Notes under the pieces: model-generated | Database searches by the model: none | Told to the model about the DNA's origin: nothing | Seen by the model: only the letters and a program-made list of their open reading frames with translations | Part shown: positions 7,544 to 62,273 of the stretch, in pieces | Layout: the number at the start of each line of letters is the position of its first letter | Numbering within the stretch: the stretch's first letter is position 1 | Source of the DNA: Gordius sp. MW1 | Lineage: Eukaryota > Nematomorpha > Gordioida > Gordea > Gordiidae | Direction: 5' to 3' | Assembly (NCBI GenBank): GCA_964036665.1 | Contig: OZ038530.1 | Location: 16,390,001-16,454,000 of the forward strand | Length of the DNA stretch: 64,000 nucleotides | Position numbers and translations under genes: made by a program

Positions 7544-8640
7544 TATATAATAAACATAGATAAAAGTTGTTTACTTTTAATGCTATGCAATTTAACTAGT
7601 TATATAATAAACATAAATAAAAGTTGTTTACTTTTTAATTGCTATGCAATTTAACTAGTTTTGGGGTTAGAATCCCGGAGTTTTTTTGACTCTTATGATT
7701 GTTCTTGTTACTATCATTGATAATAAGAATTTTTGGCCGTCCGCTGGCTGCTGACCAATGAAAAAAATGACCATTGGCCAAAATGTGAATCGAAATTATT
7801 TTTTTCGTTTTTTTTACTATTATGATTGTTCCTGTTTCTACCATTGCTATTATGACTTTTTGGCCGACCGCTGGCTGCTGACCAATGTTATATAATAAAC
7901 ATAAATAAAAGTTGTTTACTTTTAATTGCTATGCAATTTAACTAGTTTTTGGGTTAGAATCCCGGAGTTTTTTTGACTCTTATGATTGTTCTTGTTACTA
8001 TCATTGATAATAAGACTTTTTGGCCGTCCGTTGGCTGCTGACCAATGAAAAAAATGACCATTGGCCAAAATGTGAATCTGAGTTTATTTTTTCGTTTTTT
8101 TTGGCTATTATGATTGTTCCTGTTACTACCATTGCTATTATGACTTTTTGGCCGTCCGCTGGCTCCTGACCGATGGAAAAAATGACCATTGGCCAAAATG
8201 TGAATCGAAATTATTTTTTTCGTTTTTTTTTGACTATTATGATTGTTCCTGTTCCTACCATTGCTATTATGACTTTTTGGCCGTCCGCTGGCTGCTGACC
8301 AATGGAATAAAATGACCATTGGCCAAAATGTGATTCGAAAACTTTTTTTTCGTTTTTTTTTTACTATTATGAATTTATATCCACTTTTATCGTGTCCTGG
8401 CTGCTGACCAATGGAAAAAAATGACCATTTGCCAAAATGTGATTCGAAATTTTTTGTTTTTGTTTTTTTTACTCTTATGAATTTATATCTACTTTTACCG
8501 TGTGCTGGCTGCTGACCAATGGAAAAAAATGACCATTGGCCAAAGTGAGCATCAAAATTTTTTTTTCCGTTTTTTTGGCTATCATTGACTTATAGGGTAT
8601 CTGTTGGTACTGACCAATAGAGAAAAACTGACCATTGGCC
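7544..8640. repeat. Minisatellite array with two interleaved unit types
   Basis: The main unit of about 110-160 bp contains ggccgtccgctggctgctgacc, then aatgaccattggccaaaatg and a poly-T tract. It recurs about seven times, with the ctggctgctgacc core near 7744, 7870, 8031, 8159 (variant), 8287, 8397 and 8503. A second unit (tatataataaacataaataa...aactagtt) appears three times at about 7544, 7601 and 7890. Minus-strand open frames across the array are repeat artefacts. Divergence increases towards the right end. Confidence 0.85.
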
Positions 8641-36754: not shown

Positions 36755-39700
36755 TTAGTGTGTGCAAACAACGCATGCCAATTCACGGCCATCTTTGTAA
36801 GATGATGGCAAGTTGCCAGATTTGACTTCGACGATGTAGAGGGAAGCGCCATCACCAGGGGTAGCGCTTGCCTCGTATTCGGCATCTTCATCGACGCATA
36901 TGTAAGTTGCTCGAGAAAGCTCCTCGTTGGCTGACATAATATATCCACGATATTCCAAAGTCCACGTAGTTGGGCAACGTGTGAAACCTGGGAACATGTA
37001 TTGGTCTGGACGTGGAACGGAACACAAAGCGCAAAGACCGACATTGAATTTGTGTCCTTTGCGAAGGAGGGGTGAATGCTCGTCATACAACCTATACTCA
37101 GCCCCGTATATTGTGGCTTTGCTTTGGTAGCCCTCTAAGATAAATTTGTAGTCAGGGTTGCGTGGCAAGCACTGATAATCGTAGCCGGATCCAGAAAAGA
37201 AATAATGGCCACCGGCAACAAATCCTGATTATAAAAATTAGGCATTATTTTGGTCTTCAAATAGATATTATGTATAATTAAAATTCCTCTACCGTCGTAA
37301 ATTGTTTCCGCGTCGCGAGAATTTCCACCGCATCGGCTCTTGCCCCAATGAATATAAGTGGTAAAATACTCTTTCTCGACTAAAATCGAAACAACATTAG
37401 TTACATATTAAAAGTGAGTCAATGGATTTATGGATTTAAAAAATTTAACATAGTTACCCGTTGGTCCACTGACTTGACAGTTTCTGCATACACCGGGTTC
37501 TCCATCGATACCAGGATTTCCGTCGCGTCCTGGAATACCATCAACACCAGGGGAACCTGGTTTTCCATCAAGACCATTGTCTCCACGAGGTCCAGGAGCA
37601 CCAGGTAGGCCATCTCTTCCTGGTCTGCCACTTTCTCCTTTAAGACCTGGCGAACCTGGTCTCCCTGATTCTCCGTCTTTGCCTGGGAGTCCATCAGAGC
37701 CTGGTGGTCCTGGAGGCCCTCTAACTCCTGGGATACCTGGTCTACCAGCCTTTCCAGGTTGTCCTGCATCTCCATCTTTGCCAGGTGCACCATCATCACC
37801 GCGATCGCCTGGAGGTCCCTTTACGTATTATAAATGGATCATATGAATATTATTAAGAGGTTATATCTGGAAACTACTCTGTTAACGCCGAAAAAAAGAA
37901 GCTTCAACGTATCTGCTTAAAAAATGTTTTATCTCAAGCTACCAAGACACAGGCCATTATTTGGGATTTTCTATCTTAATACAGCATTTCATTAGTATGA
38001 TTGCTGGGGTGGATTTATTTTTCATTTTGATAATATTGGAGGATAAATATATATTTATATACTCTTGGTCCTGGTCGTCCTCTTTCTCCATCACGCCCTG
38101 GATTTCCGTCTTTGCCTGGGATACCATCATTACCTCTTGCCCCAGGTTGGCCTGGAATGCCGTCTTTACCTGGGCGCCCTGGTCTACCCTATAATAACGA
38201 TGAAACTATAATTTAAACCCTTAAAACTTGATATCTAATGATAATCCCAAAGAGTTTTATAGTAAACCCCTCCTTTAAATTTTTATATATTATACTATTA
38301 TGGCAATCTCACTAAACAATTTAAAGGACAATTAATTTACTTGAGGTCCTGGTTTTCCAGATTCGCCATCCTTTCCTGGAACTCCGGCCTTTCCTGGTCG
38401 TCCGTCAATACCATCTCGTCCAGATTCTCCATCCTTCCCTGGATTACCCGCTGGTCCAGTTGGTCCCTAATGATTTTTACTACTTAAAAGCATTTATATG
38501 GCATTTATAACAAGTCATCATCATTAGTTTACTTATTTTTTGGCAAATTTAAGCCTTAAAAGGCGATTGTCATGTAAGTCTTAGAATGATAGGCATAAAA
38601 ATATATAGGACTGCGATGCTAACATACTCTCTCCCCTGGAGCTCCGGGTTGTCCATCAACACCATTTCGCCCAGTTTCGCCATCTTTACCGGGAATACCA
38701 TCTAAACCGTTGTTGCCAGGGCTTCCATCTTTTCCTGGTCCACCAGGAATACCCTTGAATCGACATTATACAAATGTTTATTCTCTTTTATAATTATTAG
38801 TTAATAGAGCCACTATACACATTTCAAAAATTAATTTTAGATTCCATCTTTGTTGCATGGAATCCGACTACAAAATTATAAGTATGTATTCTAAATCTTT
38901 CTATTTTTCAACTAATACCAGAATTTGATTAAATAAATATTTGGAAATATTTCACAATTATTTATAGTATAATTACTGATTTTCCACGAGAGCCTGGTTG
39001 ACCATCTTTACCGGGTTGTCCATCACGGCCAGGTCTGCCATCACTTCCTGGTCTTCCAGCTTCTCCATCCTTGCCAGGAATTCCATCAGGACCTGGAGCA
39101 CCCTGTGATGTTTTTTGTAGAATTTTTATTTGGATAGTTACAATTATTAAAGCTTCTTTCACGTTTTACCCCACATTTGTTTTTGTTATAATTTTTATGG
39201 TGGTACAAATTATGGAACTTATATGTCTATCTATATCAATAAATTAATATAGATACACTAAAATGGTATTATGAACCTTAAATAAAAATATTTAAAAGAA
39301 ATTTCCTTTTTATGATTATATATTATTTAAGAGCCTCATAATTGCCATTTTTAATAAAAAAAAAAGTAATTTATGGACCTACCAATAATCCATCGGCTCC
39401 TGGACGTCCGTCATTACCAGGTCCGCCATTTTCACCATCTTTACCATCTCTTCCAGGATTTCCACCCCTTCCAGAACTACCATCGTTTCCTGGACTTCCG
39501 GCTGGACCCTAATCGCAAATGAGTTATAACATTATTAATATTTATCTGTCCAGATGCATTTAAAAGTAATATAAAATTCGCAATTGTTGAGTTGGCTCTT
39601 AAAATGTGCCTTGTAAATTTTATAAATTTTGGGTATTTAGAATTTTTTAATAAAGTTTGGGTATATTAAAGATATGCACAACATTTTTTAATTATTATCA

Positions 39701-42421
39701 TCCTATCGTATTTAGAAAATTTAATTCTGTAAAGCTTCATTATTAATAAATACCCTTTTGTTACACTACAAATAAATATTTTTTTGATTGAGCAGTGAAT
39801 TTAGTTAATGAACAGTATATCTGATCTTTGATAAATAGCCCTTATAATATCATTATTATACTTGTTCTCCGGGTTGACCTGGAATACCATCTCTCCCTGG
39901 CTCACCTGGTTTGCCATCACGGCCTGGAATACCATCTGGTCCCCCTCTTCCGGGGTTTCCATCTCTTCCTGGTTTTCCCGATGGGCCCTTAGGAGAATCA
40001 ATTATATTTAGCTCAATTATTAATCGTACAAATAAATAAATTTTAGTTTTTATAAATGCAGCTTAAAGGAGGCTACCAATTTATTTTTATTGAACGTTAA
40101 ATAATTACTGGTATTCCTGGTTTTCCTGGATTACCATCTCTTCCTGGAATGCCATCTTTACCAGCATCTCCGGCAGCCCCATCTCTACCTGGATTTCCAG
40201 CTTTACCATCTTGTCCCCGTCCACCCGATGGTCCCTGAAATGATCGTGATAACAGTTTTTTATCTATCAGAAACTAACGCAAAATCAAACCCGATCATTT
40301 AATGGCTAGTCTTTAAGGTTTACGAAAAAGGTTCTTATTTGTACGAATATTACGCAATACTCCATTATCTGTCTTAAAATTTTGGTTGCTAATTGTTGGG
40401 ACAAGCTGCTAATTTATTTTAGAAAAAAATTTTAACCGACAATAACTATTATTGATAAGATGTTAAAACGTGTTAAAATCACTTAGATCCTATTATTAAT
40501 TATATTTAGTCAATTTCATTTTACAAGTAAAACTTAGTTAATTATTTTTTACCATTTGTCATCTTTAATTTATATAAAATTTTACTTGTGGTCCTGGCCT
40601 GCCTGGAGATCCATCGCGTCCCGGTTTACCATCTGGGCCCGGGCGACCTGGTTGACCATCGCGGCCTGCATCTCCATCTTTCCCCGGTGGACCAGCAGGC
40701 CCAACATGTCCTGGTTTTCCGTCAAGACATGCCTTGCATTCTAAATTTATAAAAGCTAGGTGTAAACCATTACTATTCCTTAAATTTGTCTTTATTAAGT
40801 GATATTACTATAACAAATAGCATTATTCATATTATAAGCTCACTTTGCAAATACTCTCCGGCAACGTATGTCCTCTTGTTTCTAACCAAATACCTGCCGA
40901 GGCGTATTTGTTTGACTAATGGTTTAGATGCTCCATTATGCTATAATAATTTATTATAAATGATTAAGCTAAAAATAAAGAAAAAAAAATATGTTTTATT
41001 GGAAAATCACGGTAAATCGTTTAACTCAGCAAGCCACTCAAAAGAAGGGCTGAAAGGGATGCTTTTACATAAGCAAAAGAAAGTAGCGACCCACATAAGG
41101 ACAGCTATATTATCACTTTTGAACTTTGTGTCATAAGCGGAAGACTAAAAATTTTAAATTCTCAAAAAAATTGGTGTCACCCTAGGCCATTGCTACAACT
41201 TGACACACTTTTGCTTTATTCAAATTTTGTTGGTCCGTAATATTTATGCTAATTAAGTATTTAAAATCCTATTGAGGAGAGGATGGGGGTAAAACTAAAG
41301 TAAATGGTATGCATTTTCCCATAACAATGTGCCATAAGGGATATTCATAACCTACATTCGCATCTGTCATTTTTGGATTTTTTTTAATATTTTACAGTTT
41401 AACTCCCGACTTTCTCATTTAATCAAAACTAATTTTAAAAATATTCTTGACCTAATTCATGAATGTTAGCCATAGGCGTTTCTGGTTATTATGACCATTT
41501 TATTTTGTTAGCCTTTAAATTATCCATACACATCTTAATTGGCCTAAGAGTTTTTAAATTATGAACTGAAAGGTTTGATAATTATGATAATTGAAATATA
41601 ATAAAATTTCTATTACTCAACTAGCTGTTTAGCGCAAATGTGAGATTTAAATAAACTGATTAAGGCAGTGGTTTTTGAACCCTGAAATGCACGGAAATAT
41701 GATTTAATATTATTTGAACACCTAAGATTATCTATGATAAAACACATAAAATTATGAATTGCATTATTTAAAGATATAAGAAAAATGGGACCATATTTGA
41801 CAATATAAGTTTAAGATGATTTTGGCCCTCTTAAAAAATTTTATACTCGACCATATGAAACACTTTTAAAAAACATTAGTTTTTAAGCGAGCTTACTATC
41901 ATAATTATTCACATTTCTCATTACTAATACTTTTTAAATTACTACAAACAATATGAATGAAGCTTTTAAAAGACTGACGATACATTTATCTTCTCTAAGA
42001 TAGGATAATAAATTGTTATAAACTACATAGAAAAACTCAAGTCAAAATCAAAGTTTTTATAAATAATTAAAGCGCAAAAATCATTAAACTCGCAAAGTTA
42101 AATAAAAAACAGACTTACTATGACTACGGATTTTAGGAAGTTATTGAGACCTTCTATTTGTGGCTGCTCATCAATAATCTCATTGTTTAGACGTTCCATC
42201 AAAATGGTTTGTTGGTTCTTCACGCCGCTCACTTGGATGAAGAACATGGGAAAGACCAAACAGCAAGCTATGGTCGCTACTACAAAGCAACCAAAAGCAA
42301 AGAGTGAGGTCATTTGCGAGGAACTCGCTTGAGCAGCAGAAGTATTGGCCATGCAGGAGGCGCGACGATTGTAATCCTCCTCAGCCAATATCTGTTCTTT
42401 GTCAGAAGATGGCATCTGCAA
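36755..42421 (-). CDS. Transmembrane collagen with C4-like domain (downstream paralogue)
   Basis: Thirteen exons, all phases consistent, give 784 residues: 42119-42421, 40844-40940, 40586-40740, 40109-40234, 39862-39987, 39383-39508, 38977-39102, 38628-38753, 38341-38466, 38063-38188, 37458-37818, 37293-37379 and 36755-37224. Residues 1-38 are cytoplasmic and 39-62 a signal anchor, with no cleavable signal peptide, so it is type II. A furin-type RNKR lies at 121-124, CKAC at 135-138, then about 150 Gly-X-Y triplets (141-590) that end in CRNC. The C-terminal domain ([49 protein letters not shown]) resembles sponge short-chain collagen C4. It is likely a trimeric matrix or cell-surface collagen, shed by furin. 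The alternative start Met3 is possible. Confidence 0.87.
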
Positions 42422-43677
42422 TTATGTGATATTAATTAATCAAATTAATAGCAACTATTTACAATCCCAACTTTTTTCAATATCATAGATAGCTAAGTTT
42501 AAAATTGTCATCTTTGTGTGAATAATACTAACGTAAAGCACTTACTTAATATATTCACTTTGAAATAAGCCTGTGTAATTTAAGCTTTGATGTATTATGT
42601 CAAAAATGGCTTAATGGACGCAAGGTCGGGAGGGAAAATCACATAAATACTGTCTTTAGAGTTAAAAATTAATCGTCCAAAATTACAAGCCCTAATTACA
42701 GTTGCAATTACCTTAACGTTGCGCAAGATATTAAAGAACCTAAAGGACAAAGTTTTACAATGGTAATAGGAAAAAATAAAAATTCAAACAGGCATTCAGG
42801 GACGTGAAACAACTTTAAAATGTTATTACTTTCGAAAGGCGAATAGGGAATATAGGTTAAATTTTTTAGGCGCGCTACTTTTGTGCGATAGCTAGAGACG
42901 ATATAAGGAAAAATTAAATGCGCTAAATAGACCTTTTCCTTACACTTTATATCCTAAGTCCATATGCATGCTGGCCCATATATGACACCCTACCGCCTAT
43001 CCCTACCAACATTTTCATACATATTTTGCTCGATACACAGTTACAGCGGTATTCAGATACGAATACCTAAATAATGTCCCAAGTTTAGCGCATTCCTATT
43101 CTTATGACGGTCATAACAGATTTGACAAAGATATATTGAGTGTATATATAGTGAGAGTGGACTAAGCATTTACATATATAAGGAGATATTTAAGAAGCAC
43201 GCAATGTTCACACATGGTCAAACTAAAAATATTTGAGTTAAACAACCTCACTAAATTCTCGACCCTCACATAAAGTTATGACTTATTTTTTTGTCATAAA
43301 ATGTTCTTTCCCCTACTATAATATGCATAATTTGGTCAAGCTTATGTTCGTAAAAAACTTAAAATAAAACGCTTGAAACCATAAACGCAACTAGTTTTCA
43401 CGGGATATAGCTTACTCACTTAGCATGTAAATGGGTAAGATGTGAATTGCATGCAGATGAGGTAAAGAATTTGCAAATAAATCTGTTTAAAACTAGGTAA
43501 AACCATTCATAACATTTGACAAGATAGAAAACTCCTTATAATTTATAGGGGTGAAGGTAATTGTTTTAAAGCTATATAAAAGATATAATCATAGTAAATG
43601 AATTAAATGGAGTAATTTGTGATTATAATATTATACTATCGCAAAATTGCACGCGCATTTGGCCATATAATCTAAAG

Positions 43678-43703
43678 TATTAATTAATTAATTAATTAAT
43701 TAG
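43678..43703. repeat. (TTAA)n microsatellite
   Basis: The run is taattaattaattaattaat. Confidence 0.9.
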
Positions 43704-45559
43704 ACTTTTTTGCATATTGTTTTAATTTGGGTATTATGGCGTAAAGTGTTTATTAAACTTAAGAGTTCATAAACTGCCCATAATTTAATGCTCTTCCCAT
43801 TACTTTATTTGCTTCATCCACAAGTTATTTATGAAAATTGTCGCAAAGGGACATTACCAATTGGCTAGCAACGACTATAAAATAGAAAACTTAAATTAGA
43901 ATTTATGATGGAACTTTTGTCTAATTGACCATTATTACTGCGAAAATTTTTAAAATTGATAATTATCTATCATGATCATGAACCTTATGTTGTAAGTCAA
44001 TGTCGTTTACTTCTAAGGTTAAAATTTAAACTTATAAGGTTTGATATCTTTTACATATATAATAGGACACAAATTATTTTTATTGTGTACTATGATTAAT
44101 CTTTGGATGAGAGATTTATAGACTTGCACGAATTTTCTCTACATCTCTATTCATTAAGATTAACGGATTTTTTACGATTAATTAAAAATACATGCGTTTA
44201 TTATATTAATTTATCATTCCAATCAATCCACTCACCTGTATTTAAATTTCCTCAAAATAAGGAACTTACACGTCATCATTCCACACAAAAAGGAACTCGT
44301 TCAGTTCTAAGCTCCAACTTTTCATTTTTCCTTATATAAATATGTATGAAAAGCATTAATATTTGCTTTCTGGATGCAAAAATCTATTACAAACATGAAT
44401 AGGATTTTTAAACATATAGCTTTATTAAACATAATTAAGAGGTGATGAATCGAGAAGTTATACCTATGACTATGCTAAAATATATTAAACATCTGCTTAA
44501 GTTATAATGAACTGTTTGATATTAGCTACCCTCGGGTTTTAGATTACCGAGGGCTGAGACGTCTAATCTATGATATATGAGATAATCGAATAAATAGGTT
44601 CTGTTACCTCCAAATAGGAGTTAATTAAAAAACCTTTTTATATTTAATAAAAATTATTTAAAATAAACTTCAGTATAAGCTGTTGTCATGATTTTCGTTC
44701 TATTATTATTAGTATTTATATCAAAAGGTGTAAGTCTTAAAAAGAACTTTGCTGTAGGGTTTTTTGCAAGTAAGAATTCCACAAATACTCTAAATCTTTT
44801 TCTAATTGATGCATAGCAACTATGTCATTCTCATTTTTTAGATCATAAATCCTTTATAACATAGTTAATACTTCTTTGGACTTATTCCAACTCGCCTATT
44901 ATTAACGGTCATTGTGACCCAGAAGTTTAACGCACTCTTATATTAAACTATAATATGCTAATATTTGAGTTTACTTTTAGAATGTTTGCATCTTTGCGTT
45001 GAATTGAGATCTTTAAAGTTTATATTAGGTCCATATGTTTGTATTTTTAGGCGTTGATAAGTGATATTTTTGGTTATTTGTGTGTGTGTGTGCCACTACT
45101 ATCTGCCTTAATATATAAAATTTGCATTGTAAATTCTAAAAGTAAAAAATGAGACCGATTCATTTTTAATGGTGTACTTTTTGTAAAATCCATATCGATT
45201 TTTAAATGGCCATAGATTTTTTTATCGATGATAAAAATATAATATTTGTTTAATATTTGTTATTAAATATTAAAGAATATTTTTATTCATTTGCTATACA
45301 AGTTGCCTTATTTTCTTTTGCTTTAAATGCCTGTGCGAAGGAAGATTTATACCATAATTTGCTTTTTTAATATATTTTTTTATTGTTAAAATATTGTTTA
45401 TTCGATGTAGAAACATTATAAAGGCGAAGTATAAAAATGTGAAATATATAAAATATAAAAGCTGGTAGGGAATAAAAATAAATAAATATTTGCAAGCGTC
45501 GCATGCATCACTCATTAAGGGCCAGATATCGGCCAGGGATTTAAAATTATACTTTGCGA

Positions 45560-46100
45560 TTAAAATACCTATTTTTTGCTTAAAGTTGGTAGAATATTTA
45601 GACCGGGTAGCCTTGGCTAATTTCTTTAAAAGTTGAATGGTGGCTAGTCCAAAAATTCCAGAGCATGAGGCAAAAATAGGGGTAAAAACATCTGTTTGGC
45701 CATTTTACGATCTTCGGCGAGGGTCAGAACTTTATAATTTTGATTGGACTGAGCGAAAACGTCTATACAAGTAATTCATTTAAGGGGTAGACCATTTTGC
45801 CAAGGGATCAAGGTGGAGCCGTCGGGTTGCATTCCTCCTTTCAACAAAGGGTCAGACGGCTCTTAAAGCGGCCTGGATAAGGGCATTTATTTTTTCGTGC
45901 CTAATATATTTAAATTTATTAAAAAGCCAGTGTAGAGGGTACCTTGAGTGGACGTCTACCTGCTGGGAGCAGTTGCGCAGGAAAATTCTTTAGGATAGGG
46001 AATTCCGGGCGATGGAGTATGAAAGCTCTGGGTCCTCCAATCTCAATTCAGAGAGTGAAATAGGAAAAGCTTCTAGCCACCGTGACCCAATCCGTCAAAA
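45560..46100 (-). pseudogene. Decayed coding-like patch, family unknown
   Basis: The minus strand gives protein-like runs such as LSELRLEDPELSYSIARNSL, VDVHSRYPLHWLFNKFKYIR and IQAALRAV in one frame, broken by several stops. GC content is higher than in the flanks. It looks like an old transposon or gene fragment. I cannot place it in a family. Confidence 0.35.
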
Positions 46101-48262: not shown

Positions 48263-48423
48263 CATGGGCGTAGCCAGGGGGGGCACCCCCTATATGGCGA
48301 AAAAAAAAATTCAATGCAAAAACCCTTAAAAATTAAAAAAATTCACGTTTTGCCCCCCCCCCCTATTTGAACTTTTAAACGTTGTGCCCCCCCCCCTTAA
48401 TCCAAAACCTGGCTACGCCCATG
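48263..48423. mobile_element. hAT MITE (CATGGGCGTAGCC family)
   Basis: The ends are catgggcgtagccagg and cctggctacgcccatg. The target duplication ATATGATG is perfect (48255-48262 and 48424-48431). The inner text (cccttaaaaattaaaaaaat, then C-runs) is nearly the same as in the 21774-21925 copy. Confidence 0.92.
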
Positions 48424-51301
48424 ATATGATGCATGGCTCAAAACTGTGTAGATAAGGACCTTTATTAAATTTTATATTTAAATGTACGTTTTACTTTGAA
48501 TATACCACATATATATAGGTTTAGTTCTAATGCCTTATACTAATTAGGATTGTGTTTCAATACAATTCACATAGATTAAATCTAGAACTCATCCTTAAAG
48601 TGTAGCCAGCTTAACTAAAGTCCAATTTACTCTCAACTAAAAAATACTATAACTAATTAAATTTCAAGGCTTTAATCTGCTTAACTTGAATGATGTCTTA
48701 GTTTAGTATACAAATGAAATATGTCTTAGTTTAGTATACAAATGAAATGAAACAAGACTTTAGTTGAAATGAAATTTGTATTATGCCTATGATATGATAA
48801 AATTTTAATTAAATTAATAATTAAAGAGGTTAACAATTCCAATATTTTTACTTATAAGCTACCGCTACCCCTACACATTTGTCGAAATAATTTTCATTGA
48901 TCGTGTTTTATATTTTTCATATATATAGATTTTACCTAATAAAGATTTTTAATAAAAAAAAATATTAAATTGCATTCTTTGTTTTGGAACATTTGTTTAT
49001 ACAATCTTTATCTCAAATGCAATTAAGATATTTGTCTCAAGGTATTTATGTAATGAAAAATAACTACTTAATACAATTTTAAATCGTTCGTGGATTTTTG
49101 GCCAAATTTGGAAAATCCTCTCGATGATGCCATTAATTTATTTGAGGCATTTTGTTTCTTATATTTAATGTATTTATATTATATTACTTCAACGGATTTT
49201 AACAAATAAACTTACAAAAAATAAGATTTTTGTCTCAAGGTATTTTTATGTAATAAAACAAACTGCTTATTGACCTAACTAAATTGCTCAGTTAAATATT
49301 TTGGCATTAAGCTTTTAAGCTCTGTGCAATTTGGCAAAACAATGTATAATAACTTTTTACGATGTTATGTAAACTAGGTCTTCTTTGTGTCTTAGATGCT
49401 TTTTGCACAAAGTTTTATGCACATTAATTATCTTTACATTTAAATATCTTACCGCTAACCTTGGTATTGGGGCTATTAATTGAATATAAAATAAAAAAGG
49501 TACCATTAAATTTTTTAAATAATTTGACTAATAGATAAACTAACTCATAGCCTCATATTAAATTTAGGAAATTTAAACTATTGAATAATAATCTTCGATA
49601 TAAAATCTTGAAAAGTCATTAGTGAAAATTGCATATTTGCATTTGGATATTTATAAAGTTTTAAGGCTAAGTAAAACGCTAAATAATAATTGTCAACATC
49701 TAAAATTCCTGGTCACTAATAAAATTAAACCTTGCTAAATAATTGTATAAATATTTTTTTAAATATCGCTTAGATAATATCAAATAAAATGTAATTCAAA
49801 CAAACCAGGAGGCAGGGCATTTATGCAGAAGTCAGGGGGTAGCCATTCAAAGGGTAAAATTTAGGTACCAAAAGCTTTTAAGTTTAGCTTTAAAAAATAG
49901 TATATTGTTGTATAAATGTTATGCTATCTTTTAAATGTAAATAATTAAAATTAGTGAAGTAGAATATTAACCAAATTTTAAAGTTACATTATACACTAAA
50001 TGACCTGCATTTTGTTTATTGATGAAATAGCCTTGACCCTATGTATGGAAAATGTAAAACATTGCTCCCTTATCAATTTATGCTGATAATCTAATTAAAT
50101 GAGATGCATTATACAAACTGGGGTAAAAGATAAATATAAGAATTTGACCAGGGGAAACGATACCCATAAAACCTGCGTTTTGAGAAAATTCTTGCATTAA
50201 TCTAAGTGTATTTATAGTGAAACCCTGTAAACACATGAATTTAAAGGGTTGAAAAAATATGGTCAGGACTACAAGTTTTGAATAGTTTAATTTAGTCAGA
50301 TGCTATTTATTAGACATTTTGTGGCTGAAGCAGTATGTATATAAGTAGAGTTGGATTACTAAATATTCGGAACTAGTTCCTTTATCCACTTTATATCGAT
50401 CTCACTTAGTATTCACTTTATTTTGTTACAATTACATACTAAAATATTGTGTACCTTTAAAAACACCTTTTTAATCGGCCCTTTCAACATTATTTGGAGC
50501 TCCCAAAATTTTTAGAGTCCCATGCTACTACGGAGGTAGCTAGTATATAAATTTGAAGTGGATGAGGCAAAAGGTATGATAGATTTAGGTTGGGGCAAAA
50601 TGGCCTTTTCTAGATTCAACTTATTTAATAAATGTTTAGGAGGGGTGGGAATGTTTTTACATGCGTGTCATCATCAGGACGAAAAAGTTTATTGTGAAAA
50701 TTAAAATTAATATTTTAACAAAAACAATTAAGATCATTTATTGTCTTTTTTATTGTTGTTTATAAAATATTTATATGGTATAATAATGAAAACAGGACAT
50801 GAAAGGCCTCGTATAGTAATTCAAATAAAACTCTCCTTTAAATTAATTGTTGAATCAGTACAAATGGACTAAAGAGCAAATATAAAAACATTGTAAAGGT
50901 AGGGGAGACCGGGGCTATCTTTTACCCGGGGCTATAGCGTCTTCTCGATTATTTTTGTCATTTATGTTTATTAAGACCTCAAATTATAATCATAAATGTA
51001 TTTTATTAAGGCACATGTTAGGCACAAAAAATATTTGGATTAACCTTGCTCACAAAAAAATTATGTAGAAAAAAAGGTTTTTCAGGGCTAAAACGTCTTT
51101 TTTTATTTTTTTGTATTTTGTTAATTATTTAAAAACTACTTATTCTGCCAACCTGAAATATATACCAAGGTAATAAGAAGTAACTCTATTATATTTATAT
51201 TCAAATATATTTTTTTGACAAGTTGAATTATCTTAAGCACAACTTAAAGTTCAATGATCATGTCGGGGCTATCGCAGCCGGGGCTATCGTTTCCTTTTCA
51301 C

Positions 51302-51792
51302 TCATTCACTTTTTTAATTATGGTGCGTATACAAAAAGGGTTTCAATCTTGCGGCATATGGCCATTTAACCCACTTATTTATAATGATGAAAGTGTAAAC
51401 CCCCTGTATACTTCAAGTGCAAGTACAAGTATATCATGTAATCTCAATGAATCTCAAACTACCAATAATGAAGTGTCCCTAAATAATTTTAATCCAGAAT
51501 CACTTTATCCCCATCCCATTTTAACTAGAAAAACTTCAACTAGACAGCAAGTGTCAACAATACTCACATCATCACCTCATAAAAAAAGGTAAGAGAAAAG
51601 GTGGCCAAATGCCAAGGTAAGATTACTAAAAAATTGATCAGATCACAAAATAATTGCCTGATATGTGGCAAAGATTATACAAATCATCATAATAATGAAG
51701 ACTGGTTCAGCTGTAGGAAATGCTCCCTCTGGGCTCATGGATCCTGCTGCAATTATGATATTTTCTATATTTGCATTAAATGTAAATCCTAA
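51302..51792 (+). pseudogene. pogo-type transposase C-terminus with PHD-like finger
   Basis: A frame containing QKGFQSCGIWPFNPLIYNDE matches the segment that follows the DDE catalytic domain of pogo/Tigger/jerky transposases (G-F-x-x-x-G-I-x-P-F-N-P). A one-base shift in an A-run near 51588 leads into CLICGKDYTNHHN, then WFSCRKCSLWAHGSC and FYICIKC. This is the C-x2-C...C-x2-C...H...C-type zinc finger found at the end of many arthropod Tigger proteins. The DDE core is deleted and the enzyme is dead. Confidence 0.75.
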
Positions 51793-52299
51793 CCATCTTT
51801 AATAATTACATGACATTTTTATACCAATAAAAGATTTAAATCAATGATTCTAGCACAAAAATTTGATAAAGTAATTGATATGTAAAATTTTATAAGCTTT
51901 AATAGATTATGAACTTCTAATATTTTGACATTTTTAAGCACATAATATAAATTTGCATTATTTATAAACCTTAACCTTGTTTAACAATTATTCATTTTAA
52001 ATGATATTTGTGTAATAAGGCATATAAATCAATGATTCTAGCACAGAAATCTTAGAAAAGGCACTTATATGTTAAATCTCTATGAAAAGTTTTATATTAA
52101 AATATAAAAAACTTTTTAATACTTTCACATAAAGCATATGCAATTATAAGTCATTAATTTTAACATAAAAACACATTAATCCTCTTATAAAATTATTATA
52201 TCAAACTTTTTAAGCTTTAAAGTTTTTATAAACTTAATGTTTTGCAATTTAAACCATTCACTTAGTTTCACTAGGTAATAATTTCACTTCTGTGCAAAT

Positions 52300-52560
52300 C
52301 GTAATATGTGCATTTCGTAATACAGGCGAATTGCTTATGCGCATGCGCAGTTATAACCTTCCGCGTTTGGTAAGTTTTCTAATATTATTATCTTTTATTT
52401 TGTAAATATTATTATCGTTTATTTTGTAAATTTCATGTAATCTAGGCAAAATGTATTATAGGCAAGGGTTAGGGTTAGATTTAGTGATTTATTTGATAAT
52501 ATGTATTACTTATTACGAAATGCACATATTACGAAATGCACCAGATTCAATAATTTAACA
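52300..52560. repeat. TTAGGG-containing dispersed repeat with inverted flanks
   Basis: It contains ggcaagggttagggttagat (52452-52471), then tttagtg as at 9340. The text cgtaatatgtgcatttcgtaat at the left and attacgaaatgcacatattacg at the right are inverted, giving a palindromic element about 240 bp long. Confidence 0.65.
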
Positions 52561-54581
52561 ACAATCTCTGATAAATCACTCTTAAAGAATATTATCAACA
52601 TTTATAAGTTACAAAAGATTATAAACATTAAAAAATTTGGTTATTTAGGCCTAGGTAATCAATTAGTTTTTAGTTTTGGAGCTTTATATTAGAGAGGACG
52701 CGATAGCCCCTTCGAAAGGACGCGATAACCCCTGGTAGTTTTCGAAATTTATACGAGTTGTCTTTTTTTTAAACCCGTATTACGAAAAATCTATCAACTG
52801 TATTGCCATATTTTTTTTTCCTTTGAAAAACACTCTAGACACGAATATTTATCTAAAAAAAGTATATGAAAATCGGTTAACAATTTTTGTCCAGACCTTT
52901 TTGAAAATATTTGGTCGCGATAGCCCCGGTCTCCCCTAAAGTAGTGAAAACTTTAAAAATTATAAATCTATCAGATTAGCTTTAATCTGAGCCCAAGAAA
53001 TAACTTTTATCCGAGTAATACACCGAAAGTAGAGACAACAACAAGAATAAAAAAAATTTATTGGTTTTGTTAATAAGAACAAAAAAAAGCAAATTTTGGC
53101 TAACTTTTGTTAGTTATCATTCTCATATAGTATCATTATCTTTCGACGTTTCATCTAGACCTTCCTATTTGAACTAAAAAATATATCCAGCTCAAGTTAA
53201 ATATTGTTTCACTTTTCAACCACAAGAGCTAATTAAAAGTAAAGTGTTGAAAAATTAAATGGACATTTTATTCTTCAATTTTAACAAATGTTATTCCATA
53301 TATTGATACTTCTGACTTTACATACTTTGTCTTATGTAAGTGTTTTGTTTCTTAGGTATTTAAAGGTTACGCTAATTAGTGCATATATTTATCGGTAGAT
53401 AGGCTTTTATTATATGATTTATGAAAAGTGTCGTTTTAGTTAGGCTATGGCTTTAATATAACGCTAAAGATTATAGGGTAACGGGGGGGGGGCGACAGGC
53501 ATTTTCGGATTGAGATCTAATGAGAATTTTAGGTTAGTAAATAAAACTCAGGCTCTCCCGAAAAATGAATTTTTTCGATGGTTTGTGGCAAAATAATTTA
53601 TGTGCCATTGAGGAAACCAAATCTGAGAGTTATTAAGATTCTAATTCTTAGTAATAAATGGTTCATTAATTGTGATAAAGAGCAACGGTATAAAAAAGAT
53701 TATTATATAGCATATTTAGATTATCTCAACTAGTTAAATAGATTTCTCACACAAGCTTTGACCCTGGGCAAATCGAATTTTTTTGAAATAATATCATACA
53801 TTTAGCTTTAGCTTCTGCTAATCAACAAATTATATGAAATATGTAAATTGTTAAAGATCAAAATCCTTTTCTTCTTCAATTCTTTGCATACTAAAATAAA
53901 ATTTTTAGTTAAAAATTTTATAAATATAAAATGAGCATAGCAAGCGCTTCAAGCGCTTGAAAGCGCTTGCGACTTATATGCTAAGAGCTGGATATGATTT
54001 GAAACCGTGTTTTAGACGTTTGCTTCATTTAGAAATTTTAGATTTGTATAATATTTGTAAACAATCTTTAGGGTCAATCAAGTTTCTTTTCATAACGACA
54101 TATTTCGATAACCTTAGATTACGTTAAAAACATTATGTAATCAATAATGTACATAACTCTTTTAGATTGACGTCTACATATCTTTTAAAGATAATTGAAA
54201 CAAAAAACTGTTTATCATTTAATATAATGACTTATTTTTAGCGCTCACTCATAGCCAAAGAGCATATAAAATTAAATTAAAAGTCGTATAAATTATAAAA
54301 ATGTTATTAAGAAATATTAAAAGCGTTACATAAGTCAAAAGCTAAAAATATGTTTAATTTGACGCGTGTATATGTATAGTATAAACTTTGGTTTAATTAG
54401 TATGATTAGGGACTGCTTTGGCTTTCTATCAAACACCTGGAATATAACTATATAAAAAAGGATATCAAAAGTAATTCAGACTGAGGGTTGTGAGATATTA
54501 TTATAAAAGTTGGCGAAAGTTGAAACGAAGTCGTAACATTGTAAATTAACTATACGCCGTTTAAACTACGAGCAGGTGTTG

Positions 54582-57500
54582 CTATTGCGAACAAACAGCG
54601 CAAGCAATTTCGCGACCGGCTTTGAAAGTTGCAGGGAAATGGGCATCTTTAAGTTCAACAACGTATAAGGCGGACCCATCGCCAGGGGTACCGCTTGATT
54701 CGAAATCGGCATCTTCATCTACACATACGTAACTGGAACGGGATAGTTCTTCGTTGGCTGACATCAAATAACCGCGATATGAGAGTTGCCAACCCGAATT
54801 AGTTGGGCAGGCATTAAAGCCCGGGAACATAAGGGTGGTTGAACGGGGTACACAACACATAGCACATAAGGCAACATTAAATTTGTGTCCGGGGTGCGAA
54901 AAGGGAGTATGTTCGTCATATACTCTGTACTCAGCTCCGTAGATTGTGGCTTTCGATTGGAAGCCCTCGAGCTTAAATTTGAAATCTGGGTTGCGGGGTA
55001 GGCATTGATAATCATATCCAGACCCGGAAAAGAAATAATGACCACCCGATACGTACCCTGTAATAAATGTATATATTGCAGGGGTATTGTGAGAAAAATT
55101 GTTTTATATTGTATTTATTTAAATGCTTTTAATGTTTTAAAATTACCGTCAAAAATGGTTTCAGCGTCGCCTTGTGGAGTACGACAAGTACTTTTTCCGA
55201 AATGAATGTAACAGGAATGATATTCCTTTTCAACTAATTTAAAGTTAATATGGGTTATAAAATATACAGGATATAGGATTACTTAATGTGTATTTGAGTG
55301 ATAGTGAAAAAGTATAAAATATTATTTATTTATGAATATCACTCGTCAATAAAAATATGATTTTTATAGCGTCCACCATAATAAACTTTATGTCATATTA
55401 AAGTTTTAGATATTTGATAAAGTCATGAAGTTCTTACAATGTTTTTGATGCAAATTTACTCAAGCAACTAACTCGTTGAACGCAGTTTACAGATTAAAAA
55501 GTTTAAAGGTCACACAATCTACTTTTTTAAGATGGTGCAGTTATAAAATCTTATAAATCAGGCACCTGTAGGACCAACTTTAACGCAATTCTTGCATACT
55601 CCAGCCTCTCCGTCTAAGCCGTGAGTTCCATCTTGCCCCGGATTTCCATCATTTCCGGACGATCCTTTATGGCCATCGGTCCCAGGATCGCCGCGTGGCC
55701 CCGGGTCACCGGGCTTACCATCAACTCCTGGTCTCCCTGTTGGTCCTTTGGGACCCTTCTCCCCAGTATGTCCAGGATCCCCGTTCTTACCAGGCTTCCC
55801 ATCTATGCCTGGAGGACCGGGTGGACCAATGGAACCCGGGATACCAGGCGGACCTTTACTTCCAGTTGGCCCAGCTGGACCCTCTTTCCCATCGCGTCCG
55901 GGATCTCCCCTATCTCCCGGTGGCCCCTATGTACGTAACATAATATTTCTATATTATTGCTAAAAGTTGGGCATTAGTCTTAAAAATTTTGCATAACAGG
56001 TATCTTATCATATAAAATTGTTTCTATTTCACAAAATCATTTAGCGTAAGATATTAAATCACCGGTATTAGCTCGAAACAACAAGCACTGTACTTCAGGG
56101 AGGTTTTGTTATAAGTTTGGTAAAAATCTGTGTTGGAGTCAGTATATTGTTTATTTCGCTTATTTAATTATAATACGACTTGCTATTGTTCCTCTAGGTC
56201 TAGGAGAATATTTTAATAATTTCTTGAATAATTATTAACCCGTGGTCCAGGTTTTCCAATTTCACCATCACGGCCAGGTATGCCATCTTTTCCCGGTATT
56301 CCATCGTTGCCTTTAGGTCCGTTTAATCCTGGTATACCGTCTTTTCCAGGTTTACCATCTTTTCCCTAATAAATTATTAGTACAAATGCACCATTTTCTT
56401 AAAAGTTTTAAAACTTTTCACATGCTCGGTGCACAGCTTAGGAATTAATTACAACGCCCATTTGACAATCTTTCAATGTATTATAATTAAGTTCATACAA
56501 ATAAGAAGCAATTCTGTTAACTATTGATAAATACTTTCGAAAATTTATAAATCTATTATCTATAAAAACATTGCAAAGTCAATTCAAAAAGTAATCTTAT
56601 CTTTTTAGTATGTAAAAAAAATATTTTTCGTGAAAATATGATCTATTTTTTAATTGGAAAATACTGGGTTTCCTGGTATGCCCGGTATTCCGTCTTTGCC
56701 AGGATATGCATCCTTCCCTGGCTTTCCATCAATTCCATCAGGACCCGGAGGCCCGTCTTTACCTGGAATACCCGCGGGACCAGCAGGACCCTTAAATCAA
56801 GCAAATCAAAATTTAAGTTTATTTCTGCCTTTTAATATAGGACTAAATAAGGTTTTATGTCTTATAAAAACATGTAAAATATTTATACATCGGATTAATT
56901 TAGCTCTGTACACAATGAAGTGCTTTCAGGACATATTGTAATTTATAACCTGTTCAAAATTAGGAATTTAAAAATAATATTGTTCAAGATAATTATTAAT
57001 ATTTTTCTATGGTGGTATCCTCACCTTTTCTCCAGGTGACCCATTCAAGCCATCGGTGCCTGTTCTTCCCGGTTCACCATCTTTGCCAGGCAGACCGTCA
57101 TCACCGTCTTTACCAGGTTTGCCATCTTTTCCTGGTGCACCTTTTGAACCCTTAACGTGAATTTAAAAGTATGAATATCAATTGAATAAAACCCATATAA
57201 TTTTTCTTATTAAATAAGATTACTCATTTAATTACAATCATACATCATATTTCCGCAAAAATACTTGTTTTAATTGTTAAATATTGTTGTTCAATGTGCG
57301 ATTCGACTATTAATTTATTACACGGCACAAAATAAAAAGTTCTAATTGGTTGTGCAAATATTAATAAAAATTCCTAAACTTTTTGTACCCATTTCAAATA
57401 AAGAAACAAAATGACTAGCTATTTCCATTGTTTTTACCGAGTTGCCTTTAGTTCCTGGTATTCCCGATTTTCCTGGTTGTCCATCCCTACCAGGATTACC

Positions 57501-60500
57501 ATCTTTACCCGCCTTACCGGCTAAACCATCTGACCCAGTTCTCCCATCTCTCCCCGGTAAGCCCTTAGTATTTATAAAAAGAGAAAAGCTAACTTACATA
57601 TTACAGAAAAACAACTTCTATTACAAGGAAATAGACAATGCTTTATTTCTATTCAAGGAATTAAATTTTTACTATGTGCCTATATAAAAATTACTACAGA
57701 TTATAATTTTAACCAGTTCCAAATTTATATCCCTCTGTTTTTAATCCTGGTCCAAAAATATCTAAACATTCGCCACTATAATGCATAACCACTAATAAAT
57801 TACCAATTCCGCTTAAATCCAATTAAATGAATTTTTCTCTCTAATAAAGTGTCTGCAAAAACCTTAAGATTGCTTTGACATTAAAAGATTATAAAAATAT
57901 AGATTATATACCGGAGGTCCATTTAATCCTGGAAGACCGTCGATCCCAGATTCTCCTGGAATACCCGGTTTACCATCTTTACCCGGATGTCCCGATTCGC
58001 CTGGTCTAGCGTCATCACCAGGAGGACCTGGATATCCCTATTAATTTTTACGTCATTAAAAACTCTAAATTTTTTAAAACCTTTTGTAAATTTCCGAATC
58101 CAAATTTTATTTTCCTCAGTATTTTAATCACTTGCTCACAGCCATGGGCGTAGCCAGGGGGGCCAGGGCCCCTCCCTAAATGACAAAAAAAAATTTTTAA
58201 TACAAAACCCTCATAAATTAAAAAAATTTATATTTGCCCCCCCCTTCTAATTGAACTTAAAACATTTTCGCCCCACCCCCTAATCCAAAACCTGGCTACG
58301 TCCATGCTCAAGCTTCACTAAAAATATTGAATATACTGAAGCATTTATCCATTGATTATGACTTAATAATTGCTCTGGGATTATATGTTTCTACTTTGAT
58401 CATTATTTCACTGGTGCATATAAATATCAAAAATTTGATAGCACAAAATACTATCCATTGGTTTAGTAAGAGATAAAACCAGATTGAAATTCAACAAAGC
58501 GAAAATAAATGAATGAATAATTGTATATAATTTTGACAAATGTTTAAAGATCGTTAGCCATAATTTACTTGTTCTCCGGTTAGGCCTGGTAGACCATCTC
58601 TGCCTATATCTCCAGGCTTACCATCTCTCCCTGCTAACCCATCGACTCCAGGCCTGCCAGGAAATCCATCTCTACCCGGAAGCCCAGGAGGCCCCTATTG
58701 CATAAGATATACATAAAGATTTTTCTAACCTGGCATATAAAATTTCTTTGATACAAACCACTCTTTATCAAATTCGAGCTTTAAATAATATTCAAAATGA
58801 CATACAAAAAGTTACAAAATGTTCTTTGACTTTAAGTTTTTTTTTAAATTTTTACAGTGTTTGCTTAAAAACTAACTATTTAACGCCAGATTATAGAGTA
58901 TATCTTTAAAATGAGTTTATGGGTCTATACGACTTACATGATTTAAAATATCTATATATTTGTCCTTATAATAAATTTACGATTAATCCCGGTTTTCCTG
59001 GAGGTCCTTCACGTCCAGGAGGTCCATCTTTGCCTGGTGAACCTGGCTCCCCGTCTTTGCCAGATTCACCTGGATTTCCATCTAACCCTCTTGATCCTCT
59101 AGGTCCCTATTAAATCAACGCGTATAATTTTTTAAGCTAAATGGAGGTAACATGAGGAGCTACAAAAAACTCAAATTAATTCATTTAACCAGGAAGAGAT
59201 CCATCAGGAAAAGAGTCACATATTTGAGGCTTCACATTTTGGCCGCTGGTCAATTAAACTTGGCATAACTATTCGAAGTTTTAATGATTAAAGAGTATAT
59301 ATGTACGTTGCCTTCTCATTGTATTTGTCCATAGATATCAAAAACTAATTTTTATCTTATAAATTTACTTGTGGTCCATATCTCCCTGGAACTCCGTCTC
59401 GACCACTATTTCCATCAGGACCAGGAGATCCATCCCTTCCAGGCCGACCATTTTCACCTGGGGCTCCAGGTATGCCGGGCTGTCCAACTCTTCCTGGAGT
59501 GCCATCAAAACACCTTCTACACTCTAATATTAAGATAATAATTGTAAATAGTTATCTTTATATAAGTCACCCAACTCCTTTTAACTTAGGCTACTATAAT
59601 CAAATTAAGCATAAGAAAGGCTATTTAAACCACAAATCTAAATTACGAAATAAACTTTTCTATTGTTTATATGTTAAAATAATCCAAGCCTAAATAAGAT
59701 GCTGTAAAAATAAAGCTATGAAAGGAGTTCAGTATATTTCTAGAAATTATTTTAGTCTTTTTAATCTAGAGTAGTTTATATCATGAAAATAGGTATATAA
59801 CGGCAATTAGATAAGGACTATATTTTTTAATATTCTTGGCCATAAGTTTTCAACGTTGCTAATTCATTTTAATTAATATGCAACGCAAAAACTTAACAAA
59901 AGCGAAGCATGCTTAGGCATAAGTTTTAGCCTAATTTCGCATATCTCAAAACAAAGTCTTCTTATGTTTCCCTATAGCTATTGGCTATAGTGTAAGACTC
60001 ATACAATATTTAATTTCTTAGTGTAGAGGGTACATATGCTTCCACATAAGAATGCTTAGATAATACACATGTGAAGGTATGGAATTTCGGAGATTTTAAA
60101 GTGACCTAATAACCTAATATGTAAATATAAAACGGCCTGTAATACACTAGCGGCAAACCGCATGGTGCGTTACTTTTAATGGTTACTATGGTTTAGGTAA
60201 TAAATAAATTATGTCTTTTAATATGCTTTGAAATGTTATTTTAGGAAAATGTTTATGCACTTAAAGTTTGGAATGTTGCTAGATTTGGAATTAAAAACAC
60301 ATTGGTCACCTAATATTTAAATCAAACAAAGTCAAAAGGATTTTAAGTTATCAAAAATGTCTATTATATTTAATTAATAAATTATAAACATAGTAATGGC
60401 CAACTACAATACTAATATTATAAAAGTCTCTTTGTTTTATACCAAAAAATTAACAAATTAACTATTATTATTATTATTATAAGGAAAAAGTGATTTTAAC

Positions 60501-62273
60501 TACCATAAGTAACTGCTTCAAATTATTAAAACTGGTTATTTAAATAATACACCATTAACCAGTCAGTACTCTAAGAATAATTCATATTGTTACGATTCAT
60601 CAGAATAGGCTATAGTAATTGGCTCAATTAACATCTAATATCTAACTAAAATTGTCTTAGAAAAGTTTTATTTAAAATGCCACTTGAAAGATATAATTAG
60701 TATGCTAACAAATTAAAGGAAAATTTTAATTTTTCTACATGGACTAAAAGATGACTCAAAATTGTCATATCAATTAGATTAAAGAGCACAGATCGAAATA
60801 TTCAATTTGATGCTAAAACTTAACTGCTAATAATAATCTCTCCTTGTACAAATACTTCAAGAATACACTGAATCAATATGTTTTTATATGATAGATTATT
60901 TTTTAACCTTAATTTTACCAAATTAAACTGCAGGTTTATAATCCTATCAATCGAGGATGTCTAGCTGTATAAAATTAATAGATATCGCTTTTTTATTATT
61001 TTAAAAGGCGCATGAAATGTGTTTGCCAAATGGAGTCCTATACAAATCATAATCAAATCGATGAGGGAAAAAATCATATAATCAAATACAAGCTCCCTTA
61101 TTAATGATTATTTTATGTAGGCGTTATAATGCATTTAATATTCTGGAATTAAAGATTTCATGGTTCCCTATTCTAACCCGGATGATTACCGATATGCAAG
61201 CGAATAATTGTCAATTTAAAGATTGTGAAGTATACTTTGTGAATAATGTCCAGCTACATATGTTCTTCTTTCTCTCGACTTTTCATCCTCCTCACCTTCC
61301 TCTATTTCTTCGATAAGGTCTTCTGATCGTTTTGATCGGTTTAATTGATAGCCATGTTTCTATTTTTATATAATGCCAAAATACATTGTAATAGTGTTAT
61401 TATTTAAGGTAATAATTGGTGAAAGAGATATATAAATTACTTAAAAATTAATGATAAAAGTTGTTTACAAAAAAAATGCCTAGTCTTTTCAATCAATCGT
61501 AACACTCTCTAAATTACTTTTATTTATATAATGTTATTAAAAGGGTATCCATAAAGTTTGCTTAATAATTATCATAATGGCATTTCAATCACCATATTCC
61601 TTTAATAAAAAAAGAAAACAATCAAACAATTTATTTCCTTACATCGAAAATGTTTGATTTATTGCAATTTGCTAGCTTATTAATTAAAAGAGGTCTTAAT
61701 AGTATATGTTTCGCCGAAAAAAGTTACTTTTTGTTTGGGATCTGTTATGATATCGTTTATATTGTCGATTATATCAAGATTAGAGGTAACGGATTGTACT
61801 ATATTAAGTTGACCATTAAACAACAAAGGGTTCGTTTCGTTTGACAAATCGGTTTGGTATACACCTTGTACCACATTTGCCTGTGGGACCTTTTTGACCC
61901 GACCCCCAACAATGGGTGAATCTTGTCTCGAAATGTCTCCATAAATAATCAGATTCGATAAGGGTTTATTGGGAACTTTATAAGACCCCTCTAAATCATC
62001 TATATAAATATTCCATTCCAATGCATCGGCCGTTAATCGAGATTGACTATCGCGTAAAGTATGAATTTGGGTGTAGAATAGAGGCAGCGTCAAAGCGCTA
62101 ATTACGGTCGCGATAATAAAGAAACCCAAAATGAGGTAGTTAAGGGAGACGCCATCATTGGAATCATCTTCGTGATTGTAGTAGGTCATTTTGGTTTTGA
62201 GATTTCCAAATTTATGAACATCTGTATTAGCTGAGAGATGAACACATTGCCTTTCGGGAGCCGAATGCGCCAT
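54582..62273 (-). CDS. Transmembrane collagen with C4-like domain (upstream paralogue)
   Basis: Thirteen exons give 876 residues: 61728-62273, 61236-61359, 59369-59523, 58981-59106, 58569-58694, 57912-58037, 57438-57563, 57025-57150, 56665-56790, 56240-56365, 55566-55926, 55147-55233 and 54582-55057. The signal anchor (44-67; [18 protein letters not shown]) lacks a cleavage site. A 115-residue extracellular stalk is longer than in the paralogue. RSKR (190-193) and RERR (211-214, before TYVAG) are furin-type sites. CRRC (225-228) opens 150 Gly-X-Y triplets (231-680), closed by CKNC. The C4-like domain follows ([43 protein letters not shown]). Exon 2 is acidic ([10 protein letters not shown]). 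Exons 3-12 match the paralogue in length, so the pair arose by tandem duplication. Confidence 0.87.
58143..58306. mobile_element. hAT MITE (CATGGGCGTAGCC family) in a collagen intron
   Basis: It sits in the intron between exons 5 and 6 of the upstream collagen gene. The ends are catgggcgtagccagg and cctggctacgtccatg. The flanks ctcacagc and ctcaagct are similar but not identical. Confidence 0.85.
59524..61235. other. Intron 2 of the upstream collagen gene
   Basis: This is 1.7 kb of AT-rich DNA between the furin-site exon and the first Gly-X-Y exon. I see no repeat or further exon in it. Confidence 0.6.

Follow-up and report, generated by a model that had tools for sequence, protein, structure and literature searches.

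Paralogous collagen genes of the nematomorph Gordius sp. MW1 and their probable membership in a family of membrane-anchored short-chain collagens

Two collagen genes, here called A and B, lie in tandem on the reverse strand of a 64,000-nt stretch of the nematomorph Gordius sp. MW1 (GenBank assembly GCA_964036665.1, contig OZ038530.1, positions 16,390,001 to 16,454,000). The whole stretch is referred to as the window; it is part of contig C4 of a 212-Mb genome, and other C-numbers are likewise contig labels. Splicing at GT-AG introns joins 13 coding exons into a single open frame in each gene (Table 1); the number of exons is as originally predicted from the sequence alone. The predicted exon lengths also hold up almost throughout: exons 3-12 are equal in A and B (155, seven of 126, 361, and 87 nt), and the unequal exons 2 and 13 and exon 1 of B have the lengths proposed for them. 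Only exon 1 of A is shorter than the 303 nt claimed, at 297 nt from the first in-frame ATG. An AG acceptor lies immediately 5′ of this ATG, which makes a 5′ untranslated exon or trans-splicing upstream of exon 1 likely in gene A.

Table 1. Exons of collagen genes A and B, in window coordinates
Feature	Length	Position	Strand	Content
Gene A	782 aa	36755-42415	-	
A exon 1	297 nt	42119..42415	-	start codon, hydrophobic stretch (putative anchor) aa 40-60, linker
A exon 2	97 nt	40844..40940	-	furin-type site (RNKR) preceding TYVAGEY
A exon 3	155 nt	40586..40740	-	KCKAC Cys pair, Gly-X-Y triplets 1-15
A exons 4-10	7 x 126 nt	38063..40234	-	helix
A exons 4-7	126 nt each	40109-40234, 39862-39987, 39383-39508, 38977-39102	-	
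A exons 8-10	126 nt each	38628-38753, 38341-38466, 38063-38188	-	
A exon 11	361 nt	37458..37818	-	helix end, CRNC pair
A exon 12	87 nt	37293..37379	-	C-terminal domain start
A exon 13	470 nt including stop	36755..37224	-	candidate short-chain collagen/NC1-like C-terminal domain
Gene B	876 aa	54582-62273	-	
B exon 1	546 nt	61728..62273	-	hydrophobic stretch (putative anchor) aa 47-67, long linker
B exon 2	124 nt	61236..61359	-	furin-type site (RERR) preceding TYVAGHY
B exon 3	155 nt	59369..59523	-	KCRRC Cys pair, triplets 1-15
B exons 4-10	7 x 126 nt	56240..59106	-	helix; Ala replaces Gly once each in exons 6 and 9
B exons 4-7	126 nt each	58981-59106, 58569-58694, 57912-58037, 57438-57563	-	
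B exons 8-10	126 nt each	57025-57150, 56665-56790, 56240-56365	-	
B exon 11	361 nt	55566..55926	-	helix end, CKNC pair
B exon 12	87 nt	55147..55233	-	
B exon 13	476 nt including stop	54582..55057	-	candidate short-chain collagen/NC1-like C-terminal domain

In both proteins, a helix of 150 triplets is followed by an NC1-like domain of about 190 residues. The original prediction combined a signal anchor, a helix, and a C4-like domain; the hydrophobic stretch and the helix are there, and the C-terminal domain appears to be distant kin of collagen IV NC1, but it gives no Pfam C4 match. Two features were absent from that account. At the end of exon 2 is a furin-type site, after which comes a peptide that both proteins share, and the helix is flanked by Cys-x-x-Cys pairs, one before it and one after. 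Given these sites and Cys pairs, A and B are probably membrane collagens that undergo cleavage and release.

As predicted, all the 126-nt exons of A and B encode 14 triplets and begin with a Gly-position codon; they are in phase 0. The unit is, as also predicted, unlike the 54-nt unit of fibrillar collagens, and neither A nor B has a Pfam match in its C-terminal part. An unbroken run of 150 triplets, the further claim made for both proteins, exists only in A; B has the same number, but with Ala at the Gly position twice (GDD-ARP-GES in exon 6, GKD-AYP-GKD in exon 9), leaving runs of 46, 47, and 55. RGD (spotted by eye in the translations) or KGD occurs at identical helix positions of A and B (residues 345-347 and 417-419).

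That A and B are duplicated genes is borne out, and the duplication is an old one, because synonymous sites are saturated: over exons 3-11 (465 codons) p_S is 0.75 and dN 0.33. Comparable values are found for the C-terminal domain (p_S 0.69, dN 0.23), which has one 2-codon indel in 185 aligned codons; the helix has no change in length. For each of the seven 126-nt exons of A, the exon of the same rank in B is the best or tied-best match (strictly the best for five of them), and these exons are therefore positional equivalents kept since the old duplication.

With the exon-13 domain of A as query, at least 30 places were found in the genome, grouped by hand into at least 21 loci. Helix exons could be modelled in 15 of these with a dynamic-programming script, which misses the ends. 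Among the 95 internal Gly-X-Y exons of the 15 genes, 46 are exactly 126 nt long: 21 of these come from A, B, and a third gene on another contig (C8_36.8, at C8:36.80 Mb), and the other 12 genes contribute 25 of their 74. Every modelled gene has at least one such exon, if the first modelled exon is counted. As a control, the same script was run on two DNA stretches from this genome's collagen IV loci; the internal exons there are in phase 2 and 36-171 nt long, and a length of 126 nt does not occur. The 126-nt exon is probably an inherited unit of the family. Two family members lie head-to-head at C7:3716212-3738293, with anchor exons about 7.2 kb apart, and C2:21704600-21723100 holds a young-looking tandem pair with identical modelled exon lengths and identical peptides from the last C-terminal exon.

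The third gene, C8_36.8, repeats the 155 + 7 x 126 + 361 nt series of A and B, its end exons (129 and 331 nt according to the script) having been completed by hand from the sequence. Its helix has two Gly substitutions of its own, to Thr and to Phe, so that two of the three equal-length helices (B and C8_36.8) carry such substitutions. Over the seven 126-nt exons, 189, 163, and 154 of 294 residues are alike, Gly included, in the three pairs that A, B, and C8_36.8 form. In a tree of 17 C-terminal domains (eight rows joined by hand from exon pieces; C2_21.71, C2_21.72, C5_1.19, and C6_18.34 left out), the three form a clade (B,(A,C8_36.8)) with support of 100/99, and the nearest relative of A is C8_36.8, not its tandem neighbor B (94/91). 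A reading of the equal exon lengths as the sign of a special tandem pair was rejected, given the saturated synonymous sites and the third gene elsewhere with the same lengths. Taken alone, the tandem pair is an ordinary duplication inside a larger family.

The exons themselves have not stayed fixed. In the family gene C8_27.0, the helix is encoded by four exons of 126 nt, one of 378 (3 x 126), one of 180, and a last exon, for about 149 triplets by hand count, and a separate 180-nt exon is found in six family genes other than A, B, and C8_36.8. Because of this layout and these six genes, the 361-nt exon of the three is best read as a putative 180 + 181 nt joined by intron loss.

The strong selection on triple-helix length after duplication that was originally proposed is supported in so far as helix length has been held: the helix is unchanged despite saturated synonymous sites, and C8_36.8 has the same lengths. 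Two observations weaken the proposal. The C-terminal domain, too, has only a single indel, so the two genes alone show no special selection on the helix; and the scripted helices of the 12 other genes are shorter, at 91-145 triplets, on a scale where A, B, and C8_36.8 come out at 148-149 and some models are incomplete. Length is therefore not fixed family-wide, and would be matched within subgroups only.

Equal exon lengths could also arise without special selection, if the structure of old paralogues is slow to change and the Gly-X-Y repeat tolerates only indels of nine bases. The near absence of indels in the C-terminal domain fits this, as does the abundance of 126-nt exons across the family; the 180 + 181 reading of the 361-nt exon fits as well, as an example of exon structure altered by the loss or gain of introns. 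It accounts less well for three diverged genes that have no net change in helix length but N-terminal exons of very different lengths, and its chances seem to us somewhat below even. A more specific possibility is that A, B, and C8_36.8 are the three chains of one heterotrimer and for that reason have equal helices. Their shared exon series, their 150 triplets, and their well-supported clade would be expected in that case, but homotrimers would be length matched too, and C8_27.0 reaches nearly the same length; a single heterotrimer is doubtful. We prefer to explain the equal helices of the three by a combination of matched trimer chains and the rarity of tolerated Gly-X-Y indels.

An anchor exon is present in 12 of the 15 modelled genes, and in all 12 an R-x-[KR]-R sequence lies between the anchor and the helix, although the paralogous anchor exons were read from open frames without a splice check and so short a motif also arises by chance. 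No anchor exon was found in the DNA examined around C4_17.23, C4_10.44, and C6_18.25; a weak match to the anchor of C2_25.49 (E 2.0) lies upstream of C4_17.23, just past the DNA examined there. Searched against the whole genome, the anchor and linker of C7_3.738 gave 12 matches, of which the 10 with E of 6.8e-6 or less are all at family loci (its own gene included) and the remaining two (E 0.059 and 0.31) are not. The anchor of C2_25.49 gave 11, with the nine at E of 2.3e-5 or less again all at family loci. The anchor and linker thus appear to be a module whose significant matches in this genome fall only within the collagen family. Less favorable are the E of only 0.32 for B with the C2_25.49 query, and the anchors of C6_17.5 and C8_36.8, which both queries missed.

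The orientation of the anchor is less clear-cut. It was examined in 11 genes, the near-duplicate C2_21.72 being omitted from the 12 (the N-terminus of C5_1.19 is incomplete). By flanking charges, an N-inside topology is favored in six of the 11 and disfavored in four, with one tie; A (0 before, +1 after) and B (-4, +1) are among the four, although for neither are the charges decisive. A coiled coil is possible in the linker, but heptad periodicity exceeds that of shuffled sequences at p < 0.03 in only five of the 11. At first sight, the charges would suit a cleaved signal peptide, which would make these proteins ordinary secreted short-chain collagens, as the charge bias is weak or reversed in A and B. 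The stretch begins 40-47 residues into the protein, however, and is followed across the family by a conserved P-x-F-Y motif and the linker; the regular occurrence of R-x-[KR]-R downstream in the anchored genes is, moreover, how membrane collagens destined for later cleavage are arranged. Overall, a cleaved signal peptide is unlikely, and a membrane anchor is the preferred interpretation.

The C-terminal domain has a signature that we take to be short-chain collagen C4-like. Spongin short-chain collagens (SSCCs) were reportedly first described by Aouacheria in 2006. No Pfam C4 match was found in nine family domains, those of A and B included; an NCBIfam scan of the domain with two sequences returned nothing useful; and a single-sequence search of the PDB returned one chance match (E 1.1). 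When a profile of the nine exon-13 domains was compared with all PDB sequences, however, collagen IV alone fell below E 1, with matches to 6wku (E 2.2e-5, summed over repeated NC1 units) and 5naz (E 0.031). Neither A nor B has the HSQ motif in this domain. Seven Cys columns, which may or may not correspond to those of collagen IV, are invariant in the nine exon-13 sequences; a CG-x-LPC Cys pair is missing in A, B, and C8_36.8 and present in the other seven domains of the alignment. SSCCs are described as relatives of collagen IV without the HSQ motif (PMC5395295, PMC5867623, PMC12549020), with seven Cys in common with collagen IV and three of their own (PMC5395295). Against such kinship, single collagen IV NC1 units match weakly when taken alone (best i-Evalue 3.4). 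The AlphaFold2 models of exon 13 of A and B have a mean pLDDT of 32. The profile match makes “C4-like” right in the sense of distant kinship, and the domain, with its weak match to collagen IV NC1, is probably of the spongin short-chain kind. Pfam C4 matches do exist elsewhere in the genome, at C6:10.76 Mb and C3:11.90 Mb; being on two contigs, these are not a head-to-head pair, the arrangement described for collagen IV genes in other animals (PMC5395295).

Taken together, A and B are old paralogues in a family of some 21 loci that probably encodes membrane-anchored short-chain collagens with furin-type release. The gene models, the saturation, the family membership, the hydrophobic stretch, the RxxR motif, and the Cys pairs are read directly from the DNA, and from them we infer a topology, a cleavage step, a trimer make-up, and a matrix role as follows. 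An uncleaved N-terminal signal anchor would place each chain in the membrane with its collagen part outside. Three chains could then pair near the membrane, aided by the linker and the Cys-x-x-Cys before the helix, and fold into a rod of 150 triplets, which at the collagen rise of 0.286 nm per residue would be about 129 nm long (450 residues). Helix length would be held because register and length have to agree between the chains of one trimer. A furin-type convertase would cut at RNKR in A or RERR in B, freeing the rod with its NC1-like head, and the freed rods might enter an extracellular or cuticle-like matrix, where the heads and the end cysteines would join rod to rod.

The anchors also have a weak likeness to nematode cuticle collagens. 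Of 11 trimmed anchors, nine matched the Pfam family Col_cuticle_N, the N-terminal domain of these collagens, with a best E of 1.6e-4, and two matched the family that came next; with fuller N-termini, Col_cuticle_N was matched by four of six anchors. The best of the printed scores is 21.5 bits, below the Pfam cut-off of 23.5; a match of 21.4 bits had E 2.8e-4. In the eight genes with alignments shown, the match begins at profile position 2-8 and stops at 30-34 out of 50, and so covers the hydrophobic core plus a few further residues. Nine shuffled sequences of three anchors gave no Col_cuticle_N match. In a search of the whole genome, the profile found seven weak matches (E 0.06-7.9), the top five of which (0.06-0.4) are family anchor exons. 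Individual matches were rejected as evidence: a shuffled sequence matched Promethin at E 0.0027, and a real anchor matched SUR7 at 0.00024. Chance hydrophobic matches being common at such E-values, the weight rests on the agreement between genes.

It is conceivable, and no more than tentatively proposed, that this anchor is homologous to the nematode domain, nematode cuticle collagens having descended from membrane-anchored, convertase-cut short-chain collagens whose NC1-like head was lost and whose helix became shorter, while the Gordius genome keeps the older full-length form. The likeness may instead be a convergence of membrane anchors, and spongins are reported to be absent from C. elegans and Drosophila (PMC5395295). 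In function the parallel is close: of 173 C. elegans cuticle collagens, 117 are predicted to be membrane proteins and 64 of these have RxxR (PMC10538796, PMC11304992), and BLI-4 promotes release of the two cuticle collagens tested (PMC10538796). Judged by titles, open-licence papers on Col_cuticle_N are almost wholly about nematodes, and none of those listed for other ecdysozoans contains the term “cuticle collagens”. It is the possible tie of the anchor to nematode cuticle collagens that most deserves to be pursued: if the kinship is true, the origin of the cuticle collagen family becomes testable with a concrete outgroup.

The rest of the window contains several mobile or repeated sequences. 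Between B and A, an element at 50900-52938 has perfect 20-bp terminal inverted repeats and an internal Cys/His-rich frame (51583-51792), and looks like a decayed DNA transposon. Two stretches at about 48263-48422 and 58143-58306, the latter in an intron of B, are look-alikes by eye, with near-palindromic ends (gggcgtagccagg...cctggctacgccc), and are probably a small non-autonomous element. Reverse transcriptase frames resembling those of long interspersed elements are found at 1030-1791 (+) and 23599-25437 (-) (RVT_1, E 4e-22 and 8e-33), and an Nse4_C match (E 2.6e-9) at 5147-5479 (+) is probably an exon of Nse4 (SMC5/6). A frame at 7954-8589 (-) consists of repeated LANGHFF...SAASGRPK-like units, which also occur upstream of the C7:3.716 Mb gene and are probably a dispersed repeat. 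A sigma-70 promoter scan found no site, which is uninformative for an animal genome. Elsewhere in the genome, Hox-like homeodomains on C3 are spread over more than 10 Mb with no tight cluster, one of them followed by what is presumably a Ubx/Lox-like peptide, which suggests a protostome. Many COX1-like stretches are present on C1, C3, C4, C5, and C8 besides C12, probably as nuclear mitochondrial copies.

In comparison with known collagens, A and B have a different combination of features from each. With collagen IV they share the NC1 profile match; they differ in having no Pfam C4 domain, phase-0 126-nt exons in place of split-Gly ones, and no HSQ motif. The cysteines of nematode cuticle collagens flank the helix. 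These collagens also resemble A and B in the weak anchor profile match, an RxxR after the anchor, and a large number of genes; the 150-triplet helix, the NC1-like domain, and the lack of any match over the Pfam cut-off set A and B apart. To our knowledge, nematode cuticle collagens have no large C-terminal globular (NC1-like) domain.

The MACITs (collagens XIII, XXIII, and XXV; COL-99) are also membrane collagens released at furin-type sites. They are described as having furin-type release, breaks in the helix, and a short, conserved motif with two cysteines at the C-terminus (PMC4678570). If the anchor and furin-type site were the only guide, A and B might be taken for members of this group, but, measured against this description, the helix of A is unbroken, that of B is changed only by its two Gly-to-Ala substitutions, and a large NC1-like domain stands where a MACIT would have its short tail with two cysteines; a MACIT identity is very improbable.

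A family of membrane-anchored short-chain collagens remains the better description, and it is the SSCCs that A and B resemble most in outline, with a short helix and an NC1-like domain that is distant kin to that of collagen IV but lacks the HSQ motif. To this they add an N-terminal anchor and a furin-type site, in about 21 loci of one genome. Of the “under-described membrane collagen class” first proposed, the anchored form with a furin-type site survives, but the domain probably belongs with the SSCCs already described. What appears new is the anatomy of a membrane-anchored short-chain collagen with a furin-type site; the SSCC-type domain was known. None of the open-licence papers listed describes a membrane-anchored, furin-cut spongin-type collagen, going by titles and the beginnings of abstracts. 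Whether helix length is fixed by trimer partnership could be examined on the three old paralogues with equal helices. Should the anatomy be right, such proteins would be expected at the cell surface and released by cleavage, and the little-studied but widespread SSCCs would include a membrane-anchored branch that is processed like MACITs and nematode cuticle collagens.

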